Of a DNA stretch of 64,000 bases, positions 1,705-57,420 are shown in pieces (positions within the stretch are counted from its first letter, which is position 1; each line of letters begins with the position of its first letter). The notes beneath the pieces are model-generated. The model had not been told where the DNA came from. It worked only from the letters and a program-made list of their open reading frames with translations, and made no database searches. The position numbers and the translations under genes are program-made. The DNA lies in contig NZ_JAVKGN010000001.1 in the NCBI RefSeq assembly GCF_031432215.1, forward strand, positions 1,054,001-1,118,000, written 5' to 3'. The DNA comes from Halodesulfurarchaeum sp. HSR-GB. GTDB lineage: Archaea; Halobacteriota; Halobacteria; Halobacteriales; Halobacteriaceae.

Positions 1705-1744
1705 CCCAATACTTCACTATGTAAATAGCCCTCCGTATATTGGG
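1705..1744. promoter_or_regulatory. Inverted repeat CCCAATA...TATTGGG upstream of formate dehydrogenase
   Basis: A 7-base inverted repeat (CCCAATA at 1705-1711, TATTGGG at 1738-1744) flanks an AT-rich stretch that includes TATGTAAATAG, which could hold the TATA element of the fdh operon. The same CCAATA/TATTGG core forms a compact palindrome upstream of the second respiratory operon (56256-56269). Function as an operator is inferred from position and recurrence only. Confidence 0.35.
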
Positions 1745-1784
1745 ACGTGTACTACCCCCATGGGAACCCACTATCTGTATGTTA

Positions 1785-4730
1785 ATGTCCAGCATAAGTT
1801 TCGAGCGACGGGACTTCCTCAAGGCCGCGGGCGGGACCGCCCTCGCCACGGCCGCCGGGAGTTCTCGAGTCCTCGCACAATCGACCGAGGAAGACGGGGC
1901 CGCCGGTGATAGCTCCACCGAGACGGTAAAGACCATCTGCACTCACTGTGCCGTGGGCTGTGGGCTGGAGATGGAGGTCGAGAACGACGCCGTGGTGGGC
2001 TTACAGCGGTGGGAGGAGAACCCGATCAACCAGGGTGGGCTCTGTTCGAAGGGGGCCAGCCTGACTGACACGGTCAACTCCGAGACCCGTCTGAAGGAGC
2101 CGATGAAGAAAGTCGACGGCGAGTGGCAGGCGATCTCCTGGGACGAGGCGATGAGCGAGATCGCCGACGAACTCGACCGGATCCGGACGGAGTACAGTCC
2201 GGACTCGGTCATGTGGATGGGGTCGGCGAAGGTCAACAACGAGGAGGCCTACATGTTCCGGAAGCTCGCGGCCTTCTATGGGACCAACAACGTCGATCAC
2301 CAGGCCCGGATCTGTCACTCGACGACGGTCTCCGGCCTGGCGAACACGTGGGGCTTTGGGGCCCAGACAAACCCCATCAACGACTATCGCAACCAGGACG
2401 CGAACCTCATCATCGGGCACAACCCCTCAGAGTCCCACCCCGTGATGATGCAGTACCCCCAGAAGATGCAGGACAACGGGGGCACCATCATCGTCGCGGA
2501 GCCGCGATTCTCCAAGACCGCCGCAATGGCCGACAAGGTCGTCCGGTTCCGACCGGGCACGGACACGGCCTTCATCAACGGCCTGCTCTATCACATCGTC
2601 TTCAACCTCGAGGCCCACGACGAACAGTTCATTCGCGATCGGGTCTACGGCTGGGACGAGGTCCGGGAGAACCTGCGGGACTACGACCTGGAGACCGTCT
2701 CGGACATCACCTGGGTCGACGTCGAGGAACTCAAGGAAGTCGCCGAGATTCTCGCCGACGCCGAGGTCTCGACTGTCGACTGGGCGATGGGCGCGACCCA
2801 GCACAACAACGGCACCCAGAACATCCGCTCTTTTGCGACCCTGAACCTCGCGCTGGGACATGCCGCCCAGCCTGGCGGCGGCCTGAACGTCGTTCGTGGC
2901 CACGACAACGTCCAGGGGGCGACCGACCTGGGTGTGCTCTCGAACACCCTGCCCGGCTACTACGGCCTGGGTGAAGGGGCCTGGCGACACTGGGCCCAGG
3001 TCTGGGACCAGACCCCCTCGACCAGCGGGTCGACGTCCTACGACGAACTGTTCGATCGGTTCCACTCCAAGGAGATCATGGAGAAAAACGGCCTCACCGT
3101 CTCCCGCTGGTACGAGGCCGCCCATCCCGAGAACACCGTCGGCGAGGACTTCCACCAGCCCCATCCCCTCAAGGCCGTGATGATCTGGGGCCACTCGCTG
3201 AACTCCGTCTCCGAGATGAAGCGGATGCAGGCGGCCATGGAGGAACTGGATCTCATCGTCGGGATCGACCCCTACCCGGCCCTGACCTCCTCGCTCCCGG
3301 ACCGGGATGACGGCATCATCCTGCTCCCGGCCGCGACCCAGCTAGAGACCAAAGGCAGCGTCACCAACACCCACCGTTCGATCCAGTGGCGCAGCCAGGT
3401 CGTCGAACCCAGGCACAACTCCCGCCCGGACTTCGACATCATGCAGGATCTGGCCGAGCGACTCGGCTTCGGCGATCACTTCGACTACGAGACGGTGGAG
3501 GACGTGACCCGGGAGTGGAACCTCGGCATGCGCACGATCGGCATGATCGGGCAGACCCCCGAGCGGCTGAAGGCCCACCAGGAGAACGCCGGGATGTTCA
3601 GCCCGGTCGATCTCAAGGCCGAGGTCACTGACGACCACGACCTCGCCGGGGACTACTACGGGATGCCCTGGCCGTCCTGGCACGACGAACACCCGGGCAC
3701 TCCCATCCTCTACGACGCCGGCAAACACCCGGCTGCAGGCGGAGCCGACTTCCGGACCCGCTGGGACACCGAGGGCCCGGACGGCGAGACGCTCCTCCGG
3801 AACGACTACGAACCCGACTGGTGGGACGGCACGCTCGAGGGTGTCCCGCAGTACCCGATGTGGCACACCGCCCTGCCGGACCCCGAGGAACCCGCCGCGA
3901 AGACCATCCCGATCGAGTACGCCGAACGGGAGGATACGTCGGTCTACGACGCCGCCCAGGCGCTTTCGGAGGCGGGCTATGACGTCGATCCGAGCGAGTA
4001 CAGCGACTTCGATCACGCACAGCCGGACCCACCGACGGGTCGGGGACGAGCGCGCGCGTCGGCCTGGAACCTCTACGATGCGGTGCCGACCCACCGCGAG
4101 CCGATCGAGACGCCCCGACCGGACATCGCCGAGGAGTTCCCGACCTACGAGGACATGGAGGACGTCTTCCGGGTCAACCTTCGTGACCGCTCGAAACAGG
4201 AGAGTCGGGCGGACCTCAAGGACTCCCACCCGATGATCATGACCACCGGTCGGCAGGTCGAGCACACCGGTGGTGGGGCCGAGACCCGGAACAACCCCTA
4301 CACGGCCGAGCGAGCGCCGTTCATGTACGCCGAACTCAACCGAAAAGTCGCCAACGAGATCGGTGTCGACACCGGCGAGTGGGTCAAGGTCGGGACCAAG
4401 CGAGGCACTATGCTGGTCCAGGCCCGGGTGACCGAACGGGTCAACCAGGAGGAGATCTTCCTCCCCTTCCACTGGGGCGGGATCTTCGAGGGCGAATCGC
4501 TCGTCGATCGGTACCCCGACGGACTCGAACCGCTCACGATCGGGGATTCGGCGAACATCGGCACTTCGGACGGGTACGATCCGCACACGATGATGCAAGA
4601 GACGAAAGCCAACCTCGCGCTCGTCGAGAAGGCCGCTCCGGAGGAGATCCCGGACCTGCCGGAGAAGCAACTGGCCTACCAGGAGGAGAAAGGGATCATT
4701 CGCCGCCCGCTCGGGGGTGATGAAGAATGA
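1785..4730 (+). CDS. fdhA: Formate dehydrogenase catalytic (molybdopterin) subunit, Cys type
   Basis: Oxidises formate to CO2 at a Mo/W bis-pyranopterin site and passes electrons to the Fe-S subunit encoded next. From the ATG at 1785 the protein has 981 residues and starts with a Tat signal (ERRDFLKAAGG), so the enzyme should act outside the membrane; an ATG at 1779 is also possible and the frame is open upstream to a TTG at 1740. An N-terminal [4Fe-4S] motif CxxCxxxC begins at residue 52, with a fourth Cys in GGLCSKG. The family hallmark ARICHSTTV puts Cys177-His178 where selenocysteine sits in many formate dehydrogenases. RGHDNVQGATDLG and EPRFSKTAAMADKVVRFRPG are also formate-dehydrogenase-like. 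A molydopterin dinucleotide-binding domain forms the C-terminus. The stop overlaps the next start (ATGA). Confidence 0.88.
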   Translation: MSSISFERRDFLKAAGGTALATAAGSSRVLAQSTEEDGAAGDSSTETVKTICTHCAVGCGLEMEVENDAVVGLQRWEENPINQGGLCSKGASLTDTVNSETRLKEPMKKVDGEWQAISWDEAMSEIADELDRIRTEYSPDSVMWMGSAKVNNEEAYMFRKLAAFYGTNNVDHQARICHSTTVSGLANTWGFGAQTNPINDYRNQDANLIIGHNPSESHPVMMQYPQKMQDNGGTIIVAEPRFSKTAAMADKVVRFRPGTDTAFINGLLYHIVFNLEAHDEQFIRDRVYGWDEVRENLRDYDLETVSDITWVDVEELKEVAEILADAEVSTVDWAMGATQHNNGTQNIRSFATLNLALGHAAQPGGGLNVVRGHDNVQGATDLGVLSNTLPGYYGLGEGAWRHWAQVWDQTPSTSGSTSYDELFDRFHSKEIMEKNGLTVSRWYEAAHPENTVGEDFHQPHPLKAVMIWGHSLNSVSEMKRMQAAMEELDLIVGIDPYPALTSSLPDRDDGIILLPAATQLETKGSVTNTHRSIQWRSQVVEPRHNSRPDFDIMQDLAERLGFGDHFDYETVEDVTREWNLGMRTIGMIGQTPERLKAHQENAGMFSPVDLKAEVTDDHDLAGDYYGMPWPSWHDEHPGTPILYDAGKHPAAGGADFRTRWDTEGPDGETLLRNDYEPDWWDGTLEGVPQYPMWHTALPDPEEPAAKTIPIEYAEREDTSVYDAAQALSEAGYDVDPSEYSDFDHAQPDPPTGRGRARASAWNLYDAVPTHREPIETPRPDIAEEFPTYEDMEDVFRVNLRDRSKQESRADLKDSHPMIMTTGRQVEHTGGGAETRNNPYTAERAPFMYAELNRKVANEIGVDTGEWVKVGTKRGTMLVQARVTERVNQEEIFLPFHWGGIFEGESLVDRYPDGLEPLTIGDSANIGTSDGYDPHTMMQETKANLALVEKAAPEEIPDLPEKQLAYQEEKGIIRRPLGGDEE

Positions 4731-16942: not shown

Positions 16943-17806
16943 ATGGCGGAGCAACAGCGTTCCGACGCCGACAGACAACCGACCCCGGACGGTGAACACC
17001 TCAATCGAAGAAACCTCTTGGCCGCGCTCGGCAGCGCCGGCCTGCTCTCGACGGCTGGCTGTCTTGGTATCCTGGGGGACGACGAGACCGGGCCACGCGC
17101 GGACGATCCCACCCCCGTACCAACCACCGAGGGTGGCGAGGGAACGACCACTGGGAGCGTCGAGACCTTCGACATCGAGTGGACTGTCCAGGGGGCGACG
17201 ACCGCGGTCGCCAGCAACGAGGTCCTGCTCGACGTGGCCCTCGACGACGGGCTCGACGTCCCATACCAGTGCGAGCAAGGGATCTGTGGGGTCTGTACCT
17301 CAAAGGTACCCGGCGACGGGACTGACTACGTCGAGCACTCCGGCGCCGACTATCTGAGCGACGAGCAGATCACCGGCGGGTTCGTGCTTCCCTGTGTCGC
17401 CTCTCCGAAACAGGATTTTTCCATCGAGACCGGCCAGCAGGACGCGGCGGACGCCTACTCGCCCGACGGCGAGGATATCGAGGAGACGACTACCGCGGCC
17501 GACGTGGAGTCCTTCTCGATCGACTGGACCGTTCAGGGTGCCACGACCGATGTGGCGGCCACCCAGACCCTGCTCGACTCGGCCCTGGATAACGACCTGG
17601 ACGTGCCATACGAGTGTGAGCATGGCGTCTGTGGGGAGTGTACCTCGGAGGTTCCGGGTGCCGGCACCGAGTACGTCGAACACGACGGCAACCAGTATCT
17701 CAGCGACGAACAGGTCGAAGCGGGCTATGTCCTCACCTGTGTGGGTTCGCCCAAACAGGACTTCGAGATTACGACTGGCGTGAAAGACGACGCGGACGCA
17801 GTCTAG
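16943..17806 (+). CDS. Exported lipoprotein with two plant-type [2Fe-2S] ferredoxin domains
   Basis: A 287-residue protein. A Tat motif (NRRNLLAALG, residues 21-30) runs into a lipobox STAGC with Cys40, so it should be a lipid-anchored protein outside the cell. Two ferredoxin domains follow. Domain 1 has Cys110, Cys115, Cys118 and Cys151; domain 2 has Cys225, Cys230, Cys233 and Cys266. Both show the CxxxxCxxC...C spacing and both begin with the same IDWTVQGATT-like strand, so they arose by duplication. Soluble [2Fe-2S] ferredoxins of haloarchaea are normally cytoplasmic and single-domain. It lies upstream of NrfD and Fe-S genes and probably passes electrons on the outer face of the membrane. 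The ATG at 16943 is preferred over an upstream TTG. Confidence 0.85.
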   Translation: MAEQQRSDADRQPTPDGEHLNRRNLLAALGSAGLLSTAGCLGILGDDETGPRADDPTPVPTTEGGEGTTTGSVETFDIEWTVQGATTAVASNEVLLDVALDDGLDVPYQCEQGICGVCTSKVPGDGTDYVEHSGADYLSDEQITGGFVLPCVASPKQDFSIETGQQDAADAYSPDGEDIEETTTAADVESFSIDWTVQGATTDVAATQTLLDSALDNDLDVPYECEHGVCGECTSEVPGAGTEYVEHDGNQYLSDEQVEAGYVLTCVGSPKQDFEITTGVKDDADAV

Positions 17807-17858
17807 GGTTCGAATCCGGGCTCGGCCGCCAGATTGCCGTGTTACCGTGTCTCGCCCG

Positions 17859-17868
17859 TATAAAAAAC
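17859..17868 (+). promoter_or_regulatory. TATA box for the NrfD/Fe-S operon
   Basis: GTATAAAAAA at about 17859-17868 is a strong archaeal TATA-like element in the 190-base gap after the ferredoxin lipoprotein gene. It would start transcription near 17890, about 105 bases ahead of the NrfD start. A 36-codon frame begins at 17894 and its stop overlaps the NrfD start, so a leader peptide is possible but unsupported. Confidence 0.55.
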
Positions 17869-17996
17869 TCTGCAAAATTAACGACCACCCCTATGCCCGA
17901 ACGCAAACTACCAGTGGATATGGATTCGACCGTCTCGTTCCCACACACGAGGACCGCACATCCCGGTTGTCCCCGGGCGTACGCGGAGGGATATCC

Positions 17997-18992
17997 ATGG
18001 TAAATCCGCTCCTGCCCGCCGAGTTCTGGGGGCTCTCGATCGGGATCTACCTGTTCCTGGGCGGCCTGGCCGGCGGGGCGTACGTCGCCGGGGCCGTCGC
18101 CGACCTCCTCAGCACCAGACAGCCAGAGCGACAGGACTCCTACTTCGCCACGGCCCGCTGGAGTATGGTGATCGCGGTCGGTGCGATCGCCGTCGGTGGG
18201 CTCCTGCTGGTCTCACACCTCGGCGAACCGCTGAACGTGCTGCAGTTCTGGTTGTTCACGAACTCCCAGTCCTGGATGACGATCGGGATCTGGGTCATCG
18301 TCCTGTTCACGCTCCTCGCGATGGTGCAGGCCCTCTGGCTGGGCTTCGGTCGCGAGAACGGGTTTGCCGTGAGCATCGGCCCGATCGACACCCTCGCCAG
18401 AATAACTCGTCCCTCCGAGCGTGTTCGGCGGGGAATCACCGCCTTCGGAATCGCCGTCGGCGTGCTGCTGGCGGTCTACACGGCGCTTCTGATCAGCGCA
18501 ACCGGGGACGTCGTCCCGCTGTGGGACCCGACCTGGCTCCCACTGCTGTTCCTGACCAGTAGCCTCTCGATCGGCATCGCGGCCGTCTTCGGGCTGACAA
18601 CCCTGACACAGGGGGTCATCGAAACCGGCGTGGAGAAGTTCAGCCTCGCCGACGACGTGATCATCCTCGCCGAGATGGGCGTGCTCGCGATCCTTCTGGT
18701 GACACTGCAGAACGGCAACTCGACCGCCGTCGAAACCGTCCAGTACATCATGCAGGACGGCTGGCTCCTGTTCTGGGGCGGCGTGGTCGGTGTCGGACTG
18801 GTGGCGCCACTGGTCCTCTCGGCGGCCCTGATCCTCGTCGAACGGCGGGTCGACCTCCACGGGAACGCGAAGACGCTGCGCCGGGTCCGTGGGGCCTACG
18901 TCCTCAAGTTCGGCCTCGTGGTCGTCGGTGGCCTCCTGCTTCGGCTCACGATCATCTTCGGCGCGCTGAACGTGCCGATCATCGGTGCGTGA
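17997..18992 (+). CDS. NrfD/PsrC-family quinone-interacting membrane subunit
   Basis: A 331-residue polytopic membrane protein with eight or more hydrophobic helices. The start ATG at 17997 follows a good ribosome-binding site (GGAGGG). The FWGLSIGIYLFLGGLAGGAY opening and the LLVSHLGEPLNVLQFWL segment match the NrfD/PsrC/DsrP family, which exchanges electrons with menaquinone on behalf of an attached Fe-S subunit. The next gene encodes such a subunit. No molybdopterin catalytic subunit follows, unlike the NrfD operon at 56.4-62.7 kb. Confidence 0.85.
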   Translation: MVNPLLPAEFWGLSIGIYLFLGGLAGGAYVAGAVADLLSTRQPERQDSYFATARWSMVIAVGAIAVGGLLLVSHLGEPLNVLQFWLFTNSQSWMTIGIWVIVLFTLLAMVQALWLGFGRENGFAVSIGPIDTLARITRPSERVRRGITAFGIAVGVLLAVYTALLISATGDVVPLWDPTWLPLLFLTSSLSIGIAAVFGLTTLTQGVIETGVEKFSLADDVIILAEMGVLAILLVTLQNGNSTAVETVQYIMQDGWLLFWGGVVGVGLVAPLVLSAALILVERRVDLHGNAKTLRRVRGAYVLKFGLVVVGGLLLRLTIIFGALNVPIIGA

Positions 18993-18998
18993 TAACTC

Positions 18999-20090
18999 AT
19001 GACTGATACGATAGACACAGACGACATCGACGACGTGGTCGGGGACATCCTCGCGGATGTCGACGCAGACGAGACACTCGGGAAACAGATGGCCACGGAC
19101 GCCCGCCGGGTCTCGAAGGGTGAACTCTCCCGGGCCGAATTCGAGGACCGATACGCCGAGGACGTGGCCGAGGAGTTCGGCACGGACCTCACCGGCGGCA
19201 CGGCCGGCGCTTCGATGCCGGGTACCCCCTCGGTCATGGACCAGGCCTCGCGGCGATCCGTGCTGAAAGCCGCCGGTGTGGCCGCTGTTGGAGCCGCGGC
19301 CGTGGGCGCGGGTGTGTCCTCGAACAACGCCGCCGCTCAGTCCGAGGCGGACAGTTCCGTCCAGCGTGGGATGGTGCTGGACACGGAAACCTGCATCAAG
19401 TGTCTCTCCTGTGTGGAGGCCTGCAAGGAGGAGAACCACACGCCGGAGGGCCACTTCTGGATGGAGGTCCACCGCTACCAGCGCGCCGACGAGGAGTACG
19501 ACGGGCCCACGGACTGTGACTCCCTGCAGCGGCCCTGTCAGCACTGTGAGGACGCCCCGTGTATCGAGGTCTGTCCGAACAACTCCCGGTTCAAGACCGA
19601 GAACGGCCGGACGGTCTGTGATTACGATACCTGTCTGGGCTGCAAGTACTGTGAGGTCGCCTGCCCGTATCACGTGAACTCGTTTGTCGGGACCGGCGTC
19701 CCCGAGTACCTGGATGGCCCGTTCGAGGGCCAGCGCCGGGACGACGAGGGCCGTTGGCTTGCCGGTACGCCGCCGGAGGGTTCCTGCAGCAAGTGTACCT
19801 TCTGCATCCACCGTGAGTGGGACGACGAACTCCGCGGTACGACCGCCTGTGAGGAGGCCTGTCCGGTCGATGCGATCCACTTCGGGGACCTCAACGATCC
19901 CGAGAGCGCGCCGAACCAGTACCTCGAAGATTATGACGACTCAGAGACGTTCAAGGCCCGTTCGGAGGTCTCGGATCCGAACGTGATTTACGTCGGCGAC
20001 GAGCCCAAAGACGTCGAAGTCGAACCGGTTCCGGGCCCCACGAGCCACGAGGACCTCGGCCTGGAGGCGTCCGAACCGACGGGGCACTGA
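18999..20090 (+). CDS. Tat-exported four-cluster Fe-S protein (PsrB/DsrO-like) with N-terminal extension
   Basis: A 363-residue protein. An acidic N-terminal module (residues 1-80) precedes an internal Tat signal (SRRSVLKAAG, Arg85-Arg86, hydrophobic to about residue 107). The ferredoxin part has CIKCLSCVEACK, CQHCEDAPCIEVCP, CLGCKYCEVACP and CSKCTFC with a later CEEACP, giving four [4Fe-4S] clusters. It starts six bases after the NrfD gene. An exported Fe-S subunit with NrfD is the DsrO/DsrP arrangement. The N-terminal module shares the pattern DA(K/R)RVS(K/R)G.LS...F...Y with the Fe-S subunit at 56417, which has no Tat signal. Confidence 0.85.
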   Translation: MTDTIDTDDIDDVVGDILADVDADETLGKQMATDARRVSKGELSRAEFEDRYAEDVAEEFGTDLTGGTAGASMPGTPSVMDQASRRSVLKAAGVAAVGAAAVGAGVSSNNAAAQSEADSSVQRGMVLDTETCIKCLSCVEACKEENHTPEGHFWMEVHRYQRADEEYDGPTDCDSLQRPCQHCEDAPCIEVCPNNSRFKTENGRTVCDYDTCLGCKYCEVACPYHVNSFVGTGVPEYLDGPFEGQRRDDEGRWLAGTPPEGSCSKCTFCIHREWDDELRGTTACEEACPVDAIHFGDLNDPESAPNQYLEDYDDSETFKARSEVSDPNVIYVGDEPKDVEVEPVPGPTSHEDLGLEASEPTGH

Positions 20091-20294
20091 CCGCGGCTGC
20101 ACTCTTTTCTGGCACGCAAGCAGGTGAGTCCCGGGGTGGCCGGACCAATCCGAGAGTGTGACATGTAACTCGCCGCTCGAAATCGCTCGTTCGGTATTTC
20201 ACGCCTTCTATTGCCGAAATTTCTGACCCCTACTTAATGGCCTAAATTGTGCTCATGAACCCCTTTTGAAGTAGGGTTGGTAGGAGAAGTTGCA

Positions 20295-21278
20295 ATGGAA
20301 CCTGATAGAAACGCGCGCATCGGATCTAACCTCTCGCGTCGGAAGTTCGTCGCTGGAACGGCCGCCGGTTTCGCGACGGTCAGTCTCGCCGGCTGTACGG
20401 ACGGCAACGGCGAACCGACCACCACTGCGGAACCCGAGCCGGAAGACTACGTCGTCACCGACGACGTCATCGTGAGTTCCTCGTACGTCCCGGCAAACGC
20501 CGGCTTCGCGCAGGCGTGTTCGCCGTCGCGGATGTTCGCCCCGGAAATGCACCCGGTCTTCAAGATCGGTGTTTACGACCCCGAGACGGGCGAGCAGCTG
20601 GGTAACGATACGCTCGACTCCGTATCGGTCAACATCGACGGCTACGAGACTGTCGACCTCGCCTGGGGCGGTGACGCCGAAGAGAACCCCTCCGAGGAGT
20701 GGAGTGGGAGCTGGGCCATCCCCGAAGACGCCGAACCCGGTGCGATTTCTTACACCGTCGAGATCACCAACGACGACGCCAACTTCCACAACGTGGGGAT
20801 CCTGGAGAGTTCGATTACCATCATCGAGTTCTCACAGGACTACCTCATCACCGACGACCTGTACGCAGGGTCCGCCGGAATGAGCGACTACGAGGACAAC
20901 GAGTTCATTTCCGGCTGTGCGCCCTCGCGCCAGTTCGCACCCGGTATGATGGTCGGCTTCGACATCGGCGTCTACGAGAGCTCCACCGGCAATCCGGTCG
21001 GTCCCGCCGACGGCGACCAGGAAAACGTCGTCGCGGGCATCGAATCCGCCACGCTCACGATCGAAGACTTCGACGAGACCGTCGAACTGGGCTGGTCCGG
21101 TATGTCCGAGGGTGAGGCCACCGAGGACCTCAACTGGAACGCTACCTGGACCATCCCGAGCGACGCCGAAGCAGGCAGCTACAACTTCACCGTGGAGGTC
21201 GTGGCGGCTGATGACAACATTGGCTCCAAAAACGTCGGGGCCACGGCCCACGTCACGAACTCCTTCTCGATCGTCTAA
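20295..21278 (+). CDS. Tat lipoprotein with two Cys-containing tandem repeats, unknown family
   Basis: A 327-residue protein. The ATG at 20295 follows AGGAG. The Tat motif SRRKFVAGTA leads to lipobox LAGC (Cys34), then a Thr/Glu/Pro spacer. Two beta-rich repeats follow, about residues 52-178 and 182-327. Each begins DD.(I/L)...S, carries a Cys-x-Pro-Ser-Arg-x-Phe-Ala-Pro motif (CSPSRMFAP with Cys75; CAPSRQFAP with Cys208) followed by F.IGVY...TG, and ends with W...W.IP.DAE.G...(Y/F)TVE. Apart from the lipobox these are the only cysteines, which is notable outside a cell. No named family was recognised. It lies 204 bases after the Fe-S gene and may work with that exported electron-transfer cluster. 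Confidence 0.8.
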   Translation: MEPDRNARIGSNLSRRKFVAGTAAGFATVSLAGCTDGNGEPTTTAEPEPEDYVVTDDVIVSSSYVPANAGFAQACSPSRMFAPEMHPVFKIGVYDPETGEQLGNDTLDSVSVNIDGYETVDLAWGGDAEENPSEEWSGSWAIPEDAEPGAISYTVEITNDDANFHNVGILESSITIIEFSQDYLITDDLYAGSAGMSDYEDNEFISGCAPSRQFAPGMMVGFDIGVYESSTGNPVGPADGDQENVVAGIESATLTIEDFDETVELGWSGMSEGEATEDLNWNATWTIPSDAEAGSYNFTVEVVAADDNIGSKNVGATAHVTNSFSIV

Positions 21279-21294: not shown

Positions 21295-21777
21295 TCAGTT
21301 CGGCTCGACTCGGTCTTTGACGTTCGCGAAGTACCGATCGACGTCTCCCTCGATGAACTTCTTCAGGAGCCGGGCACCGAGACTGGCAACACCGCCGGTG
21401 TAGAACAGTTCGGCCGAGTAGGAGAGATCGACCTCGCCGGTTTCGGTTTCCTGCATCTCCATCGCCGCGAGCACGTCGAAGGTACTGCCGGTCGTGGAGT
21501 CAAAGGCCTCTCCCTCCGCGATGATCCAGTCCGGTTCGTCCATCTCGACGAGTTCGAACTCCCCGTCCAGCGAGACCGAGACGTGCCCGATCCCCCGTTC
21601 GATTTCGACGGAGTAGCGCCGTTCGGTATGTCTGGTGACTTCCTGGGCTCCCGGAACCACGTCCGCGAGGTTCTGGGCATCGGAGATGAACTCCCAGAGG
21701 GTCTGTTTGTCCGTGTCGGCTCGAACGGTGTCCGTGAATTCGAGACTCGATCGATCGTCGTCTGTGTCAGGTGTCAT
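21295..21777 (-). CDS. SRPBCC/CoxG-family protein
   Basis: A 160-residue protein with the START/SRPBCC pattern of the CoxG group: TVRADTDKQTLWEFISDAQN at the N-terminus, VVPGAQEVTRH, and the final GARLLKKFIEGDVDRYFANVKDRV helix. CoxG-like proteins bind hydrophobic ligands or membranes and often accompany molybdenum hydroxylases, but none is present in the window. Here it is the last gene of an ABC transporter cluster, 20 bases downstream of a permease gene, so a ligand or substrate link to the transporter is more likely. Confidence 0.8.
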   Translation of the reverse strand: MTPDTDDDRSSLEFTDTVRADTDKQTLWEFISDAQNLADVVPGAQEVTRHTERRYSVEIERGIGHVSVSLDGEFELVEMDEPDWIIAEGEAFDSTTGSTFDVLAAMEMQETETGEVDLSYSAELFYTGGVASLGARLLKKFIEGDVDRYFANVKDRVEPN

Positions 21778-21797
21778 GGGTGTGTTGGACCGTGTTG

Positions 21798-22565
21798 TTA
21801 TCGCTGCTGCCAGGGGGTGAGCCAGTCGCCGATCTCCTCCGGGCCGTGGACGAAGACCAGGCCGAGCACGTTGATCGAGAACAGGGCCACGTACAGCTCC
21901 AGGATCTTGAACTGCTGCCAGGAAGTCCAGATCACATAGCCCAGGCCGCTGTCCGCCGCGACCATCTCGATGATGACCAGGAGGACCACGGCGATGCCCA
22001 GCCCGAGGCTCAGTCCGCTCGCGACCTGTGGGAGGATGCTCGGCAGGACGACCTCCCGGTAGATGGCCAGGCGACCGGCCCCGTTGTCCCTCGCCGCGGC
22101 GATGTACTGGCCTTCGATCTGTGTCACGGCGTCCATGGTGTTGATCGTCACCAGGAGGAACACCGCGAGTGCCATCGTGAGGATCCGGGCCGTCTCGCTG
22201 ACGCCGAAGATCGAGAACATCACCGGCAGGATGGCGATCTTCGGAAGCGGGTAGAGCACACTCAGATGCGGGTCGAGAATCGCCCGCACGCCGCCGTTCC
22301 GACCGGCGAGCAGTCCCATCGTCACTCCACTCGCCGTTCCCAGCAGTCCGCCGAGGAGGACCCGCCGGAGGCTCGCGAGGAGATGGGTCAGAAAGTCCCC
22401 GTGAACGTAGAGTTCGACGGCCAGCCCGAGAACGGCCGTGGGCGGTGGGAAGAAACGGGCGTCGATGAGCCCGCCACGCGCGGCGGCCTCCCAGCCGATC
22501 GCCAGCACCACAAACGGCCCCAGTAACAACAGGAGCCGGCTGCTAGAGCGTCGAGCGGCCGTCAT
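21798..22565 (-). CDS. ABC transporter permease (SsuC/TauC/NitT-like), distal
   Basis: A 255-residue permease starting MTAARRSSSRLLLLLG at the ATG at 22565, which overlaps the ATPase stop by four bases. It has about six hydrophobic helices and the EAA-loop signature IAAARDNGAGRLAIYREVVLPSI followed by LGLGIAVVLLVIIEMVAA. This matches the sulfonate/taurine/nitrate permease group. The frame extends upstream to 22802, but that extension is the antisense shadow of the ATPase gene. It should form a heterodimer or alternate with the second permease at 24728-25504. Confidence 0.87.
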   Translation of the reverse strand: MTAARRSSSRLLLLLGPFVVLAIGWEAAARGGLIDARFFPPPTAVLGLAVELYVHGDFLTHLLASLRRVLLGGLLGTASGVTMGLLAGRNGGVRAILDPHLSVLYPLPKIAILPVMFSIFGVSETARILTMALAVFLLVTINTMDAVTQIEGQYIAAARDNGAGRLAIYREVVLPSILPQVASGLSLGLGIAVVLLVIIEMVAADSGLGYVIWTSWQQFKILELYVALFSINVLGLVFVHGPEEIGDWLTPWQQR

Positions 22566-23404
22566 TCCTGGCCTGCCGTGTCGTTGACGACCGTATCGAG
22601 GATCGACCAGACCCGGTTCTGAAGCTCCTCGAACCGGGCGAAATCGAGGTTCTCCCTGGTCCGTGGCCGATCGAGGTCGATGTCGATCACCTCGGCGATC
22701 TGCCCCGGCCGGTCGGTCATGACCCCGAGCCGATCGCCCAGACGGACGGCCTCCTCGATGTCGTGGGTGACATACACCACTGTCTTCGGCCGTTCGCGCC
22801 ACAGCCGGATCAGCTCCGCCTGGAGCCCTCGTTTGGTCTGGGCGTCCAGATCGCCGAAGGGCTCGTCCATCAGCAGGACCTCCGGATCGTTGGCGAAGGC
22901 CCGGGCGATGTCCACCCGCTGTTTCATGCCGCCCGATAGCTGATGGGGGTAGGCGTCCTCGAACCCGTCGAGGTTCACCTTTCGAATGTACTCCCGGGCG
23001 ATCTCCCGGCGTTTCTGAGTCGGCACGTCCCGCATCTTGAGCCCGAAAGCCACGTTCTCGAGGACCGTCTTCCAGGGGAAGATCCCCTTCTCCTGAAAGA
23101 CGAGTCGGGACTTGGGGCGATCGGCTGCGGACTCCTCGATCTCGATCGTGCCGGCGTCGGGTTCGAGCAGTCCGCTGAGTCCCCTGAGAAACGTGGACTT
23201 CCCACAGCCCGAGGGCCCGAGCAGACAGAAGAACTCCCGGTCCCGGACCGAGAGGTCCATCCCGTCGAGGGCCTGGACGGTCGTGCCGTTGGACTGGTAG
23301 GCCATCGTCAGGCCCTCGACGCGAATCCGAACCTGTCCGGCCGGCTCCGGTTGCTCCGTGGCCGGGGTCGGTCCGTCGCTGTGGGCGCGCTCGGGTGGGA
23401 TCAT
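22562..23404 (-). CDS. ABC transporter ATPase (SsuB/TauB/NitT-like)
   Basis: A 280-residue ATPase from the ATG at 23404 (a TTG at 23419 would overlap the binding-protein gene). Walker A is LLGPSGCGKST, the Q-loop QEKGIFPW, the signature LSGGMKQR, Walker B VLLMDEPFGDLD, and the H-loop YVTHDIEEA. GIFPW and DIEEAVRLGDR are typical of the sulfonate/taurine/nitrate importers. It is the only ATPase of the cluster, so it must serve both permeases. It lies eight bases after the substrate-binding gene. Confidence 0.92.
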   Translation of the reverse strand: MIPPERAHSDGPTPATEQPEPAGQVRIRVEGLTMAYQSNGTTVQALDGMDLSVRDREFFCLLGPSGCGKSTFLRGLSGLLEPDAGTIEIEESAADRPKSRLVFQEKGIFPWKTVLENVAFGLKMRDVPTQKRREIAREYIRKVNLDGFEDAYPHQLSGGMKQRVDIARAFANDPEVLLMDEPFGDLDAQTKRGLQAELIRLWRERPKTVVYVTHDIEEAVRLGDRLGVMTDRPGQIAEVIDIDLDRPRTRENLDFARFEELQNRVWSILDTVVNDTAGQE

Positions 23405-23412
23405 CGGGCAGG

Positions 23413-24600
23413 TCAACAACTCGAATCGGTGGGGAATTCAGTCGGGGTTCGGCGCTCGCCCACGGGCGGATAGGGGGTCAGCGCGTTCTCGCCCCACTGT
23501 TCGATCGTTTCCACGTCCGGTCTGGCGGCCTCATCATCGAGTCGGCCGACCGTATCGAGGGCCGATTCCAGGAACGTCTCGTCGATCACGTCCCCGATGG
23601 GCACCGTCTCGTCGACGTTGCCCCGACAGGCGTAGAACGCCTGCTGGTTCTCGACGCTGTCGGCGTTGAGGTGACCGTTCTTGTGTGGGAGCGAGGGGAT
23701 CGAGGCCTGGATCGCCGCTTTGGGCAGATCGAAGGTGTCACTGACGATCGTCGCGACCTCCTCGCTGGGGAACCCGCCGAGTTCGTAGTACTCCCGAACG
23801 CCTTCGAGATACGCCTCGACCCAGCGAGTCGCCACCTCCGGGCGCTCCTCGGCAAACGGCCCGCCGAACAGGTAAGCCCCGATCTGCATCCGTGGGGCGA
23901 CCATGGAGGCATAGCCCAGTTGGGTCGCATCCGCCTGGTCGGCGACCTGCAGCCCGAGGGGGTCCGGAATCGAACAGGCGTCGATCTGTCCCTCGGCCAT
24001 CGTCACGGGCATGTTGTTGTAGAGGACCTCGGTGGTCGAAACGTCCTCCCAGGTCATGTCGTTCAGTTCGAGAATGCGGCCCCAGACATACGAGTCGACG
24101 TTGCCCGAGCCGTGCAGGCCGATCGTGAGGCCTTCTGGCAGGTCGTAGATCGAGTCGGTGTCCGGAACGGCCGCCGAGCGGGCCCAGATCCGGTTCGCCG
24201 AGGGCTGGCCCGGCCAGTACTGGGTCTGGTCCGCGACGACCCGGATGTCGATGTCCTGGGCCACGGAGTTGAAGAGACTGGCCCCGATCGAGCCGGTGGC
24301 GACGTCCAGGTCGCCGCTTGCGAGTTGTGGGGTCGCCTTCGGGGCACTCTGGATTCGCTTCACTTCGAGTTCGATATTCCGGTCCTCGAAGTAGCCGCGA
24401 TCGCGGGCGATCAGGATCTCCGCGACTGCGGGGATCGTTAGCGTGCCGAAGGTGACTGTATCGGGGCCGCCATCGACCGCTCCGAGACAGCCGCCGAGGG
24501 CTGTCGCGGTGGCCACACCGGCACTGGCGAGGTACGCCCGTCGCGAGAGCCCCCGGCTCCGCCGCGTGTCATCGACTGATTCCGATACGGGTCCGTCCAT
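23413..24600 (-). CDS. Tat lipoprotein substrate-binding protein of the ABC importer
   Basis: A 395-residue protein with a Tat motif (LSRRAYLASAG) and lipobox ALGGC at about residues 34-38, so it is lipid-anchored outside the cell. The mature part follows the NMT1/SsuA/TauA pattern: RDRGYFEDRNIELEVKRIQS, then QLASGDLDVATGSIGASLF, then QIDACSIPDPLG. The ligand class of these proteins covers sulfonates, nitrate, bicarbonate, taurine and pyrimidine precursors, and the sequence alone does not choose among them. It is separated by 127 bases from the upstream permease gene and may have its own promoter. Confidence 0.87.
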   Translation of the reverse strand: MDGPVSESVDDTRRSRGLSRRAYLASAGVATATALGGCLGAVDGGPDTVTFGTLTIPAVAEILIARDRGYFEDRNIELEVKRIQSAPKATPQLASGDLDVATGSIGASLFNSVAQDIDIRVVADQTQYWPGQPSANRIWARSAAVPDTDSIYDLPEGLTIGLHGSGNVDSYVWGRILELNDMTWEDVSTTEVLYNNMPVTMAEGQIDACSIPDPLGLQVADQADATQLGYASMVAPRMQIGAYLFGGPFAEERPEVATRWVEAYLEGVREYYELGGFPSEEVATIVSDTFDLPKAAIQASIPSLPHKNGHLNADSVENQQAFYACRGNVDETVPIGDVIDETFLESALDTVGRLDDEAARPDVETIEQWGENALTPYPPVGERRTPTEFPTDSSC

Positions 24601-24727
24601 GACATCGGGTAGTTTCCCTGTGACCGAAACAATCCACCTGCATTTTCCAGCCTTTTTTCCACTCCCCTACTTCAAGGACAGCCATTTGCTCGCCTCGCTT
24701 TAAGTACTCGGCCCGTGCCTGCCCCGG

Positions 24728-25504
24728 TCACGGTCCCAGCACGGGCTGGTCATCGAGGGTCTCCCACGGGATCAGCGACTGGCGAAGGCGAGCGAGGCCG
24801 TCGGTGACCGAGATGCCAACCAGGCCGATGACGACGAGGGTGGCATAGAGGTCCGGCAGCACCGAGGCCTGCCAGGAGATCCAGAGCACGTATCCCAGGC
24901 CGTCGTTTCCGGCGACGAACTCCACGGCCGTGACGATCAACAGGGACATGCTCAGGCCGAGTCTGAGCCCGACGAACACGAGCGGGAGGGCCCCGGGAAG
25001 CCACACTTCCCGGAGCTGGGCCAGTCGGGATCTGGCGCCGTTGTCCCTGGCTACTTCGACGTAGACCGGGTCGATGGCCTTCGCGCCGTTGCGTGCGTTC
25101 CAGACGATCAGGATAAAGGAGCCGACCGCGCCCGTAAACACCAGCGCGGCCTCCGTACTCCCCACGACGAGGATGAGAAGCGGGAAGAGCGCGATGACCG
25201 GGAGTGCGAAGATCGCGGAGATAACCGGCGAGAGGACGGCCCGAATCCGCTTGTTGGCGGCCATCGCGAACCCGATCGGGATGCCAAAGAGCGCGGAACT
25301 TCCGGCCGCCAGGCCCGTCCGCCTGAGGGTCGCAACGACGTGCCCCTGGAAGTTCGCCTCGGTGAGGAGGTGGAGTGTTCGCTGGCCGATTTCTACCGGT
25401 GGCGGGACGAAGGTCGGATCGAGGAGGCCGGCACTGACTGCCCCCTGCCAGAGAAGCACGGGGACCGCAAGCGAGAGCGCGCGAGTCAGTTTCGGCCCGA
25501 CCAT
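24728..25504 (-). CDS. ABC transporter permease (SsuC/TauC-like), proximal
   Basis: A 258-residue permease, second of the cluster. Six or so helices are visible, with the EAA-loop DPVYVEVARDNGARSRLAQL and VWLPGALPLVFVGLRLGLSM. It resembles the permease at 21798-22565 over its length (FVPPP versus FFPPP near the N-terminus, LGYVLWISWQ versus LGYVIWTSWQ near the C-terminus), so the two are paralogues that can pair in one transporter. It starts four bases after the Ig-like gene upstream. Confidence 0.87.
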   Translation of the reverse strand: MVGPKLTRALSLAVPVLLWQGAVSAGLLDPTFVPPPVEIGQRTLHLLTEANFQGHVVATLRRTGLAAGSSALFGIPIGFAMAANKRIRAVLSPVISAIFALPVIALFPLLILVVGSTEAALVFTGAVGSFILIVWNARNGAKAIDPVYVEVARDNGARSRLAQLREVWLPGALPLVFVGLRLGLSMSLLIVTAVEFVAGNDGLGYVLWISWQASVLPDLYATLVVIGLVGISVTDGLARLRQSLIPWETLDDQPVLGP

Positions 25505-25507
25505 CGG

Positions 25508-26941
25508 TTATTCGGTGATCTCGATTGTCATGTGCAGGCCCGGGAGCGGCCGGATGGGGTGGTTGTCGAGATAGGAGAGGTGTGGTGTCAACTCGAAGTT
25601 GGGTTCCTCGTCTTTCACGTCGAAGAAGCTGGGATAGACGTCGATGAAGTGATAGCCCGGCTGGCCGCTGGCGGTGATCTCGGTCTTTGCGGTCCGGGCC
25701 TCGAGCCCACAGACATAGCCGATGGGCTTGTTGTCATAGACGAAGTAGTAGGCGTTCTCGTAGGTCGGCCACCCGATACCGCTCAGTTCGATCTCGACGG
25801 TCTCGCCCTGCTCGGCGGTCTGTGGGCTCACCTCGAGGATGTCCGCCTGCATCATGAAGCCGGTCGTGGCGACGGACTCGCCATCGATTTTGGCGGCGAT
25901 CGGTCGGGTCGAGCCCTTGTCCTGTGGAATGGTGATCTCCTCCTGGAAGCGGCCGTCCTCGTCGGTGGTGACCGTGGGCAGGACCTCGGGGAGTGGGTCG
26001 GGCCGGATCGGGATGTCCTTGACCCGGTGCCCGGAGTGTGAGTGCCAGACGAGATCGACCTCGGTGTTCGCGGGGAAGTCCGTGCCCGTGATGACCGCGT
26101 CGGTCCCCGGCTGGCCGGACTGGGGCGTGATGTCGATCGTGGCGTCGTGTTCGACTTCGGGGTCGGGGACGTGGACCTGGAGTGGGGACTCGTCGAACAG
26201 TTCCTCGACCCAGTAGCCCCCGAGTTCGGAGTCCGGTTCGGTGACCTCGACGTCGAACTGGTACTGTCGCCCGGCGGCGACCTCGCCGAACGGCGACTGG
26301 GTGTTGTTCTGCATGAACGGCACGCCGCGATAGTTGCGCCAGACCTGGATCTGGTGGCTCCCCACGGGGCCGGCCGCACGGATGCGAGCCGTGGCCGTGC
26401 CGTGATTTTTCACGCCGGTGATGAACCCGACCATGCCGTTGTCCCAGGTGAGCTGGTAGTTGCTCTCGACGACGTTCGGGCCGATGCCGTAGCCCGTGAC
26501 GGTGAAAAAGCCGCCGAGGGGGACTTCAGTCTCCTGGACCTCGAAGTACGGGCGGATGCGAACGGCGGCCTTCGCGATCGTCTCGTCGTCGCCGTTCCGG
26601 ACCTCGATCTTGTGTTCCCCGCCGTAGTCCTTGGGGATCGTCCACTCCTCGGAGAACTTCCCCTGGTCGTCAGTCTGGGCCGTGAGCGCGTGGATGGTCC
26701 GGGGACGATACTGGGCCCCGGTGACCTCGTTGCCCTGCAACACGCCCCATTTCCCCTTGATGGTCCGCCAGAACACGTCGAGTTCCTCGTTTTCGGGCAG
26801 GTTGAGCCCACGAATCGTGAGCGTGTCGTGGACGTAGGCCTCCTCGTCGCTGAGGATGAGGGTGCCACTCGCGCCCTGGCTCTGTTGACGGCGCTCCGAA
26901 AGCCGGTCTGTAACCTCATTGGATAGTCCGTCGTCTCCCAT
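25508..26941 (-). CDS. Multi-domain Ig-like (IPT/TIG-type) protein of the ABC cluster
   Basis: A 477-residue acidic protein built from several beta-sandwich repeats. Each starts with a G-x-x-G or P-x-x-x-G strand pattern such as LILSDEEAYVHDTLTIRGLN, VPLGGFFTVTGYGIGP, ITPQSGQPGTDAVITGTDFP and VSPQTAEQGETVEIELSGIG, resembling IPT/TIG and big Ig-like domains of surface proteins. No signal peptide is visible at either possible start, so it would remain in the cytoplasm or be exported by an unrecognised route. It is the first gene of the transporter cluster, four bases before a permease. Its role is unknown. Confidence 0.7.
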   Translation of the reverse strand: MGDDGLSNEVTDRLSERRQQSQGASGTLILSDEEAYVHDTLTIRGLNLPENEELDVFWRTIKGKWGVLQGNEVTGAQYRPRTIHALTAQTDDQGKFSEEWTIPKDYGGEHKIEVRNGDDETIAKAAVRIRPYFEVQETEVPLGGFFTVTGYGIGPNVVESNYQLTWDNGMVGFITGVKNHGTATARIRAAGPVGSHQIQVWRNYRGVPFMQNNTQSPFGEVAAGRQYQFDVEVTEPDSELGGYWVEELFDESPLQVHVPDPEVEHDATIDITPQSGQPGTDAVITGTDFPANTEVDLVWHSHSGHRVKDIPIRPDPLPEVLPTVTTDEDGRFQEEITIPQDKGSTRPIAAKIDGESVATTGFMMQADILEVSPQTAEQGETVEIELSGIGWPTYENAYYFVYDNKPIGYVCGLEARTAKTEITASGQPGYHFIDVYPSFFDVKDEEPNFELTPHLSYLDNHPIRPLPGLHMTIEITE

Positions 26942-27036
26942 AGCTCGAAAGCCGGTTCCGCCGGCGAAAGGGATTCGTCTGAAATATGCAGGGTTTTAGG
27001 CAGTCCCGGGCCGCTAATAGCGGGATACAGGCGCAA

Positions 27037-27340
27037 AACCCACGACTTCAGTCGTGGGATACGCGCCGTAAGCTTGAGTGAGCAACCGGATGTAGCAGAT
27101 TCCGTGCGTGGAAAACTGGCAGTTGACTCGGTGTCTGCCACGGCGAGAGCCGCCACCAAACATGTGAGCCGAACACGCCGACCGACACAAAACAAGATAC
27201 CTCGAAGCCCCACACGGGGTACGAGTACCGGCTTCGTGGCGGAGCCAGTGCCGTCGGTCACAAAGCTTAGATTCCCACCCTTCAGGATTGACCTGCCCGG
27301 CCAACACCGGGTGGGAAGCCCTCGACGTTAGTCGTGGGCG
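27037..27340 (+). mobile_element. IS200/IS605-type relic (tnpB 3' end and end hairpins)
   Basis: The segment is bounded by two similar hairpins in the same orientation: CCCACGAC/GTCGTGGG (27039-27058, loop TTCA) and an imperfect copy at 27319-27338 (loop GTTA). The right one follows GGGTGGGAAGCC, the context seen at the right end of haloarchaeal IS1341/IS200-type elements. A short frame between them (27074-27331) ends in a low-complexity SPTRGTSTGFVAEP stretch like degenerate TnpB tails. No transposase remains, so it is a relic or a non-autonomous copy. Both the identification and the boundaries are moderately certain. Confidence 0.5.
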
Positions 27341-27344
27341 CACG

Positions 27345-27704
27345 TCACCTCCCTTTGTTGCTCGCGCCCAGTATCGCGGGGATGATCTTGGACTCAGCAG
27401 CCCGGAGCCGCTGGGAGACTGCCGACTTCGAGATTCCCAGTTCCTCGGCGATCTCCTCGAGGTGGCCACCGCGGGGTGACGTGTAGTGGCCCTTCTCGTG
27501 GGCGACCCGCAGGGCCTCCCACTGCTTTTTCGTCAGGTTGCCGACCTCGATCGAGAGGGGTTCGGAGTACTCGTTCTCGGGGTCGACGATCGTGATCGTT
27601 TCGACGTCCGGTCCCATTGATCCATACTGCTGGATGATTTTTCGCAGGGCCGCCCGATCCGCGATCCGGAAGGTCACGTAGAGGGGCGGATCGCTATCCG
27701 ACAT
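27345..27704 (-). CDS. HTH-10 (Bat-type) regulator, short form
   Basis: A 119-residue protein starting MSDSDPPLYVTFRIADRAAL. An N-terminal bacterio-opsin-activator-like beta/alpha domain is followed by the HTH-10 domain: LTKKQWEALRVAHEKGHYTS and LEEIAEELGISKSAVSQRLR, then the final helix AAESKII. It lacks the Cys-rich sensor part of the next two regulators. The frame extends to 27764 but the extra residues are Pro/Arg-rich. It ends just beside the IS200/IS605 relic. The DNA target is unknown. Confidence 0.85.
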   Translation of the reverse strand: MSDSDPPLYVTFRIADRAALRKIIQQYGSMGPDVETITIVDPENEYSEPLSIEVGNLTKKQWEALRVAHEKGHYTSPRGGHLEEIAEELGISKSAVSQRLRAAESKIIPAILGASNKGR

Positions 27705-27869
27705 GCAGACCACCGCGTCCGACGGTCGTCGGGTGGGCACGTCCGTTCCTGGTCGGTCCCCCACCCGCCCGACGCGTCCGGGCCGTCCACAGCTTCGGGC
27801 ACATACTCGATCGGACGGCCCACTGGCCCCTGTAGTTTAACCTGTACTTTCCTCCGCTTCAAAAAGTGA

Positions 27870-28547
27870 CTACCCCGATAGCTGGCCGACGAGTTTGCGG
27901 GCCAGCCGGGATTCGACGGCCTTGAGTCGCTGGGAGATCGCCGACTTCGAGACGTCCAGGCGGTCGGCCAGCACCTCCAGGTCGGCCTGGCGTGGGGAGT
28001 CATAGTAGCCAGTCTCCACGGCGACCTCCAGGGCTTCGAGTTGCTTCTCGGTGATCTCGGAGGTGTCGATCTGGATCGAGCCCCCCGAGTCGGGGGCGGA
28101 CTGGGTGATGCTGTTGACACTCACCGCGGAACCGGTGGTCCGCAGCCGACTGATGAGATCCCGAAGCGTCTCGCGGTCCGGAATCTGGACGGTGACGATG
28201 ACCTTCTGCCGGTTGGTCCGCTCGAAGGTCGGGATGCAGTCGACCTGGTGGAACTGGAGACAGAAACAGCCGGGGGTGATCGCCGCGCGCTTGAACTGGC
28301 TCTCACCCTCGCTCCCGTCCGCGGCCATCGCGGTGTTGCAGGTCCCGTGGTCGTGGGTGCCCTGGCAGGTGTTCTCCGAGCAGTCCGATTCGAAGGTGAG
28401 GTTCTGTTCGAGGGAGTCGACCTCCTCGGTCCCCTCGAATAGCGGGCACTCCATCTCCTGTTCGGGTTCGATGGCCAGGGTCGCGACGAGTGGCGGACCG
28501 GTCGACGATTCGCCGGGAACCGCGGTGTGGGTGTGTTGGGAGGACAT
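27870..28547 (-). CDS. HTH-10 regulator with Cys-rich N-terminal sensor (DmsR-like)
   Basis: A 225-residue protein. The first 105 residues hold seven cysteines in short pairs (SDCSENTC, PGCFCLQFHQVDC) that could bind a metal or an Fe-S cluster. The middle part (VIVTVQIPDRETLRDLISRL) is the bacterio-opsin-activator-like domain, and the C-terminus is HTH-10 (ITEKQLEALEVAVETGYYDS, DRLDVSKSAISQRLKAVESR). Regulators of this type control anaerobic respiration genes such as the DMSO reductase operon in Halobacterium, which makes the formate and sulfur-oxyanion operons of this window attractive targets. Confidence 0.85.
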   Translation of the reverse strand: MSSQHTHTAVPGESSTGPPLVATLAIEPEQEMECPLFEGTEEVDSLEQNLTFESDCSENTCQGTHDHGTCNTAMAADGSEGESQFKRAAITPGCFCLQFHQVDCIPTFERTNRQKVIVTVQIPDRETLRDLISRLRTTGSAVSVNSITQSAPDSGGSIQIDTSEITEKQLEALEVAVETGYYDSPRQADLEVLADRLDVSKSAISQRLKAVESRLARKLVGQLSG

Positions 28548-57418: not shown

Positions 57419-57420
57419 CA

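Follow-up and report, generated by a model that had tools for sequence, protein, structure and literature searches.

A molybdoenzyme-free NrfD unit with a tandem [2Fe-2S] lipoprotein, recurrent in haloarchaea

Here, we describe a putative electron-transfer unit encoded in a 64,000-nucleotide stretch (the window; G000 C1:1054001-1118000) of the 2.25-Mb genome of the haloarchaeon Halodesulfurarchaeum sp. HSR-GB (G000). Four open reading frames (ORFs) were found on the plus strand at 16943-21278, where the initial annotation had placed them: a lipoprotein bearing a pair of plant-type [2Fe-2S] domains (Fer2x2), the membrane subunit NrfD, an exported 4x[4Fe-4S] protein (FeS), and a Cys-repeat lipoprotein (CysLP). 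With reasonable though not strong confidence, we read Fer2x2, NrfD, and FeS as an NrfCD-type, molybdoenzyme-free menaquinone oxidoreductase whose outer partner would be the [2Fe-2S] lipoprotein, the CysLP genes being separable. This reading draws on the parts and their ligands, the quinone-site residues, the lack of a molybdopterin subunit nearby, the apparent shared ancestry of FeS and Fer2x2, and their conserved company. The parts of the unit are known ones; their arrangement is new.

Results

Fer2x2 matches Pfam Fer2 in two stretches (2.8e-25) and passes the cut-off of TIGR02008 (plant-type [2Fe-2S] ferredoxin; 113 bits, cut-off 81.15), and all eight ligand Cys (4+4) are invariant across 15 homologues, which bears out the earlier proposal of two plant-type ferredoxin domains in one lipoprotein. 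NrfD passes PF03916 (7.4e-32; 111.7 bits, cut-off 25.8), has eight hydrophobic segments, and falls in the 8-helix NrfD/PsrC class; its profile gave no meaningful match in the PDB. Residues Y18, H74, S92, Y161, T162, and R316 align with Y21, H74, S92, Y162, T163, and R306 of Escherichia coli NrfD (reference sequence from the MG1655 record). The Tyr, His/Asp, Ser, Tyr-Thr, and Arg sites of the family are credited with quinone binding and ion movement (PMC8076601), and their retention speaks for quinone chemistry at the outer membrane face, with electrons probably passed to FeS.

FeS matches several Fer4 families and Ferredoxin_N (Pfam, 1.3e-18), and its 16 ligand Cys, sufficient for four [4Fe-4S] clusters, are invariant across homologues. 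It scores below the cut-off of the NrfC model TIGR03149 (124.5 bits, cut-off 377.6), with NrfC-like features (16 Cys, a twin-arginine translocation [Tat] motif, and a position beside NrfD) present. The internal twin-arginine signal stands C-terminal to the Ferredoxin_N domain; a Tat signal of its own is what FeS would need in the absence of a Tat-borne catalytic subunit to carry it. Ferredoxin_N (PF16947; window 18999-19200), which precedes that signal, resembles small stand-alone ORFs directly 5' of PsrA genes (L153:9091-9336, L155:5476-5697) and may have to do with assembly or export.

The distribution of the genes was surveyed in 394 genomes of class Halobacteria (thresholds: Fer2x2, E <= 1e-30; CysLP, E <= 1e-20; FeS relatives, E <= 1e-45). 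Fer2x2 was found in 13/394 genomes and CysLP in 24/394. Window-type NrfD (51-64% identity outside the genus, no molybdopterin partner) occurs in 10/394 genomes of four genera, as do all four genes together. Fer2x2 is present in 10/10 genomes with window-type NrfD and in 3/384 others (by genus, Fisher p = 1.6e-5), CysLP in 10/10 and 14/384 (p = 3.4e-4); the by-genus values are the fairer ones because the genomes are related. Halodesulfurarchaeum and Halapricum have the four genes side by side in one shared order; G319/G362 and G032/G141 have them rearranged within ~9 kb. The initial annotation had made its proposal depend on whether the genes co-occur elsewhere; this neighbourhood comparison found that they do, and a recurrent molybdoenzyme-free exported electron-transfer unit stands, at least two of its four genera being known sulfur respirers. 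G362 is Halalkaliarchaeum desulfuricum AArc-Sl, a sulfur reducer (PMC6176080). For Halapricum hydrolyticum HArc-curdl7 (G259), no published evidence of sulfur respiration by this strain was found, and the sulfur-respiration link rests on Halodesulfurarchaeum and Halalkaliarchaeum. A Cas12f1-like TNB-domain protein adjoins the locus of G319 (L057:8088-9419).

No molybdopterin subunit is encoded at 16943-21278, as the initial annotation had remarked; the nearest is Fdh at 1740-4730, 13.1 kb away. Throughout the 10 genomes with window-type NrfD, the nearest molybdopterin gene is at least 13 kb off, and the same-operon catalytic subunit of a complex iron-sulfur molybdoenzyme (CISM; Psr/Ttr/Phs) is absent. 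Comparison NrfD genes have a molybdopterin gene within 0.8 kb (15/15). At 16 distinct molybdoenzyme-free loci (types A and B, below), none is closer than 10.8 kb, in flanks of varying length, several of which span only 2.5-5 kb on one side. The host has 10 molybdopterin genes and six NrfD genes, five of which adjoin a molybdopterin gene; a complete tetrathionate-reductase-like set (FeS, NrfD, and molybdopterin subunit) lies in the same window at 56417-62054. The premise that NrfD nearly always serves a molybdopterin subunit is not supported: E. coli NrfCD, MccACD, and DsrMKJOP are exceptions (PMC8076601), and molybdoenzyme-free FeS-NrfD pairs are common in haloarchaea.

All 18 FeS proteins of molybdoenzyme-free units form one clade (support, 100/99) apart from 21 molybdoenzyme-linked FeS proteins. 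Their NrfD proteins, by contrast, fall into two clades in different parts of the tree: type A, that of the window, adjoins PsrC of Psr operons, and type B (~450 aa) is in the other half. The Fer2x2 tree shows the same A/B division, the two groups being moderately supported (80/89 and 87/96). One FeS clade and a matching Fer2x2 split against two NrfD clades suggest that NrfD was replaced or exchanged between two lineages; on the simplest reading of these trees, FeS and Fer2x2 would have been co-inherited while the membrane subunit was replaced. Both NrfD types are present at the G319/G362 loci. Three loci (L134, L135, L136) hold FeS, NrfD2, and Fer2x2 only, with HTH_10 regulators nearby, and thus point to FeS, NrfD, and Fer2x2 as a minimal core.

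FeS relatives were found in 148/394 genomes. At 20 sampled loci, NrfD2 is directly downstream in 15 (BLAST), and a molybdopterin gene is within the stretch read in one (L177, ~4 kb off). These pairs resemble that of the window in FeS (~40-50% identity), the adjacent NrfD-family gene, and the lack of a molybdopterin gene nearby in most sampled loci; they differ in their neighbour, an exported EB_dh-type (ethylbenzene dehydrogenase haem-subunit-like) lipoprotein or a NUBPL/Mrp-type ATPase in place of Fer2x2. Related exported lipoproteins are present at 5/20 loci (three tested, all matching EB_dh), and the ATPase gene follows in 8/14 clustered loci. EB_dh-type lipoproteins beside molybdoenzyme-free FeS-NrfD2 are at L163:9975-11606, L164:9455-11119, L165:4030-5637, L160:6387-7955, and L138:7308-9331; such a protein is a possible alternative outer electron carrier. 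Molybdoenzyme-free FeS-NrfD pairs are thus ordinary in haloarchaea, and what sets the window unit apart is its [2Fe-2S] lipoprotein partner.

Of known systems, E. coli NrfABCD offers in NrfC-NrfD the same molybdoenzyme-free pair of an exported 4x[4Fe-4S] protein and NrfD, with the same quinone-site residues (NrfD ~28% identical), but passes electrons to pentahaem NrfB and to NrfA, where the window unit has the tandem [2Fe-2S] lipoprotein. Membership of an NrfABCD system was rejected, since NrfA cytochrome c552 (PF02335) was detected in 0/10 genomes with window-type NrfD (E. coli control positive); no protein of the cluster has a haem-c motif. PsrABC and the haloarchaeal Psr-type CISM share with the window unit an NrfD that neighbours PsrC in the tree, but the unit lacks PsrA, and its FeS is of another clade with its own Tat signal. 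QrcABCD and NhcABCD likewise have an NrfD-family subunit trading electrons with an exported carrier (PMC8076601), but their partners are multihaem cytochromes c, and Qrc retains a molybdopterin-binding-like subunit.

CysLP, as first described, has two Cys repeats of no recognised family (C75 and C208 in invariant columns; no Pfam or NCBIfam match above the curated cut-off). Its AlphaFold2 model comprises two beta-sandwiches at a mean predicted local distance difference test score (pLDDT) of only 61.7, and Foldseek matched it only to immunoglobulin (Ig)-like proteins at template modelling (TM) scores of ~0.2. A 477-aa protein encoded nearby has no Pfam match of its own, and a paralogue matches TIG (1.1e-6). 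Both are predicted, with modest confidence, to be Ig-like beta-sandwich proteins. Enzymatic roles for the two were considered and dropped: the profiles have no convincing PDB relative, and Foldseek returned only Ig-like proteins (TM-score, ~0.2). The 477-aa protein (25508-26941) has many invariant residues near its C terminus (HLSYxxNHPxRPxPxxH) and no visible signal peptide, which is odd for a surface protein. CysLP (20295-21278) is 77-78% identical to its counterpart (L055:9531-10541) in Halodesulfurarchaeum formicicum HSR6 (G006), the sole congener in the sample, and its three neighbours are 95-96% identical; CysLP therefore evolves faster. A shorter, single-repeat paralogue adjoins CysLP, mostly in divergent orientation, in genomes without window-type NrfD (L066:8993-9700; similar in L059, L062, L065, L067-L070, and L072-L074).

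Conservation of the neighbourhood does not end at 21278: the minus strand carries CoxG, ABC-transporter, and Ig-like protein genes and two HTH_10 regulators (21295-28547; Table 1). Around the NrfD unit of Halodesulfurarchaeum, Halapricum, and G032/G141 stand CysLP and these genes; G319/G362 differ in having the CoxG and 477-aa genes at a second CysLP locus (L056, L061). The set also occurs away from NrfD, sometimes enlarged by a flavin reductase, DoxX, or UbiD gene, in Halorubrum, Halosimplex, Haloferax, Halohasta, and Halonotius; one metagenome-assembled genome (L150) has it together with FeS, NrfD2, and Fer2x2. The CysLP/CoxG/ABC/Ig-protein genes are an associated, separable module, which perhaps binds or imports some ligand. 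The place in the electron path first proposed for CysLP is not supported: the protein is predicted to be Ig-like and accompanies CoxG, ABC-transporter, and Ig-like genes, often without any NrfD. In other systems, CoxG proteins are menaquinone binders or membrane anchors for enzymes; by analogy, such a role is a possible link to the NrfD unit.

NrfD and FeS are separated by 6 bp. A TATATAAA..CTGTAAAAT element, similar to the TATA-like element CGTATAAAAAACTCTG of NrfD, sits 5' of the Halapricum NrfD homologues; given this counterpart, the four genes are probably divided among about three transcription units. A 36-codon ORF overlapping the NrfD start is kept in HSR6 and not recognisable in Halapricum. 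The 25 bases directly 3' of the Fer2x2 stop (GGTTCGAATCCGGGCTCGGCCGCCA; 17807-17831) resemble a tRNA 3' end but were discarded as a tRNA remnant (one genomic copy, nothing called by ARAGORN, altered in HSR6); the likeness is probably chance.

Table 1. Features of the NrfD locus and its conserved neighbourhood (window coordinates)
Feature	Coordinates	Strand	Description	Evidence
Fer2x2	16943..17806	+	Lipoprotein (Tat/lipobox; RR at residue 22, TAGC); two plant-type [2Fe-2S] ferredoxin domains	Pfam Fer2; ligand Cys
TATA-like element CGTATAAAAAACTCTG	17857..17872	+	Putative separate NrfD-FeS promoter	Inference; intergenic region conserved in HSR6
NrfD	17997..18992	+	Membrane subunit; 8 predicted transmembrane segments; quinone-site residues intact	Pfam NrfD; alignment to E. 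coli NrfD
FeS	18999..20090	+	NrfC/PsrB-like; N-terminal Ferredoxin_N, internal Tat signal (RR at 85), four [4Fe-4S] ligand sets	Pfam; Cys conservation
CysLP	20295..21278	+	Lipoprotein; two predicted Ig-like repeats, each with one invariant Cys (C75, C208)	Alignment; AlphaFold2; Foldseek
CoxG-type SRPBCC protein	21295..21777	-	Adjoins CysLP in most loci	Pfam COXG 4.8e-20
ABC permease 1	21798..22568	-		Homologues; conserved order
ABC ATPase	22562..23419	-		Homologues in related loci
NMT1/SsuA-like substrate-binding lipoprotein	23413..24600	-		Pfam NMT1_2 1.1e-11; TIGR01728 SsuA 3.2e-14, below its cut-off
ABC permease 2	24728..25504	-		Homologues in related loci
477-aa protein	25508..26941	-	Several predicted Ig/TIG-like domains; strongly conserved	AlphaFold2 mean pLDDT 71.9; Foldseek Ig-like proteins
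HTH_10 regulator	27345..27764	-	Bat-type	Pfam 1.6e-18
HTH_10 regulator with DmsR_N domain	27870..28547	-		Pfam HTH_10 3.9e-18, DmsR_N 3e-8

Discussion

As a menaquinone oxidoreductase, the unit would work as follows. NrfD would bind menaquinone or menaquinol near the outer membrane face and may move protons; Tat-exported FeS would dock on it and conduct electrons via its four [4Fe-4S] clusters; and membrane-anchored Fer2x2 would occupy the place of bacterial multihaem cytochromes (NrfB, DsrJ) and exchange electrons, either way, with something outside the cell. Complex formation, topology, and proton movement are what we infer from the sequences, and Fer2x2 is put as the likely next carrier after FeS because the two appear co-inherited and share export. 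Several observations weigh on the other side. Two Fer2x2 copies (L133, L137) have neither FeS nor NrfD in the flanks read. Most FeS relatives in other haloarchaea lack a nearby Fer2x2, so the FeS family as a whole does not require it. Fer2x2 is probably transcribed separately from NrfD-FeS. Two molybdopterin genes of the host (894633 and 900898) were taken to be cytoplasmic from the literature on strain HTSR1 (PMC5437934), whose FdhA pair they resemble.

NrfD and FeS might instead be spare subunits of a molybdoenzyme encoded elsewhere, such as the Psr-type enzyme at G000 C1:981669, with Fer2x2 unrelated. The nearest molybdoenzyme-linked NrfD relatives are indeed PsrC, from operons in which the catalytic subunit shares 65-70% identity with the 981669 enzyme, a molybdopterin gene of similar size has no NrfD within 5 kb in 8/10 genomes (by position), and a Psr operon without psrC is noted for AArc-Sl (PMC6176080). 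The 981669 operon, however, already encodes a PsrB and a b561-type cytochrome anchor, G032 and G141 carry the orphan NrfD and no such orphan molybdopterin gene, and the orphan-unit FeS proteins, which bring their own Tat signal, form a clade apart. Three host molybdopterin loci without NrfD were inspected for an unlinked partner, and each has other membrane partner genes: b561-type subunits at 981669 and at the window Fdh, and a Rieske/cytochrome b pair adjoining the enzyme at 822670. With a membrane partner beside every exported molybdoenzyme inspected, and none partnerless, the unlinked-partner reading is weakened; a constant catalytic partner encoded elsewhere, which the initial annotation had named as the finding that would count against its own proposal, did not emerge. 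We consider this explanation improbable.

Far more improbable still is a DsrOP-like half of a DsrMKJOP complex, which the initial annotation had entertained and which we set aside. DsrO and DsrP likewise pair an exported FeS protein with an adjoining NrfD-family subunit, and among NCBIfam models FeS matches DsrO best, but at 146 bits against a cut-off of 200, and a molybdoenzyme-linked Ttr FeS scores higher on the same model (192.7 bits). The window NrfD, of the NrfD/PsrC class, has 8 transmembrane segments as opposed to 10 in DsrP (PMC8076601), the cluster proteins lack haem-c motifs, and DsrC was found in 0/10 genomes with window-type NrfD (E. coli control positive; DsrM, DsrK, and DsrAB were not searched directly).

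Within the menaquinone oxidoreductase reading, the direction of flow can be weighed. Plant-type [2Fe-2S] proteins usually have potentials far below that of menaquinone, so that transfer from Fer2x2 to menaquinone would be downhill, and outward flow to sulfur or polysulfide would need to be driven by proton motive force or helped by a raised potential. The unit could accordingly run inward only, as a dehydrogenase in which an external donor or extracellular enzyme supplies Fer2x2 with low-potential electrons for the reduction of menaquinone by NrfD-FeS; bacterial Qrc runs inward with an NrfD-family subunit (PMC8076601). The locus, however, encodes no exported donor enzyme, and Halodesulfurarchaeum and Halalkaliarchaeum respire sulfur compounds, for which an outward path would also be sensible, and we hold a strictly inward course to be possible but doubtful. 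Sulfur is a possible acceptor for the NrfD-FeS-Fer2x2 unit. Its elaboration into a cytochrome-c-free surface conduit, in which an NrfCD-type menaquinol oxidoreductase would deliver electrons through Fer2x2 to sulfur, polysulfide, or another external acceptor and CysLP, the 477-aa protein, and the ABC transporter would handle the acceptor or its products, seems to us rather unlikely.

NrfD/NrfC-type quinone modules have so far been known with molybdoenzymes, hydrogenases, and multihaem cytochromes; the outer partner here appears to be an exported plant-type ferredoxin pair, and the quinone subunit appears to have been exchanged without separating the Fe-S protein from its [2Fe-2S] partner. The main texts on these sulfur respirers (PMC5437934, PMC6176080), in the portions drawn on, treat molybdoenzymes and yielded no mention of the window unit; the NrfD-FeS-Fer2x2 unit may therefore have gone unnoticed as a branch of their respiratory chain.

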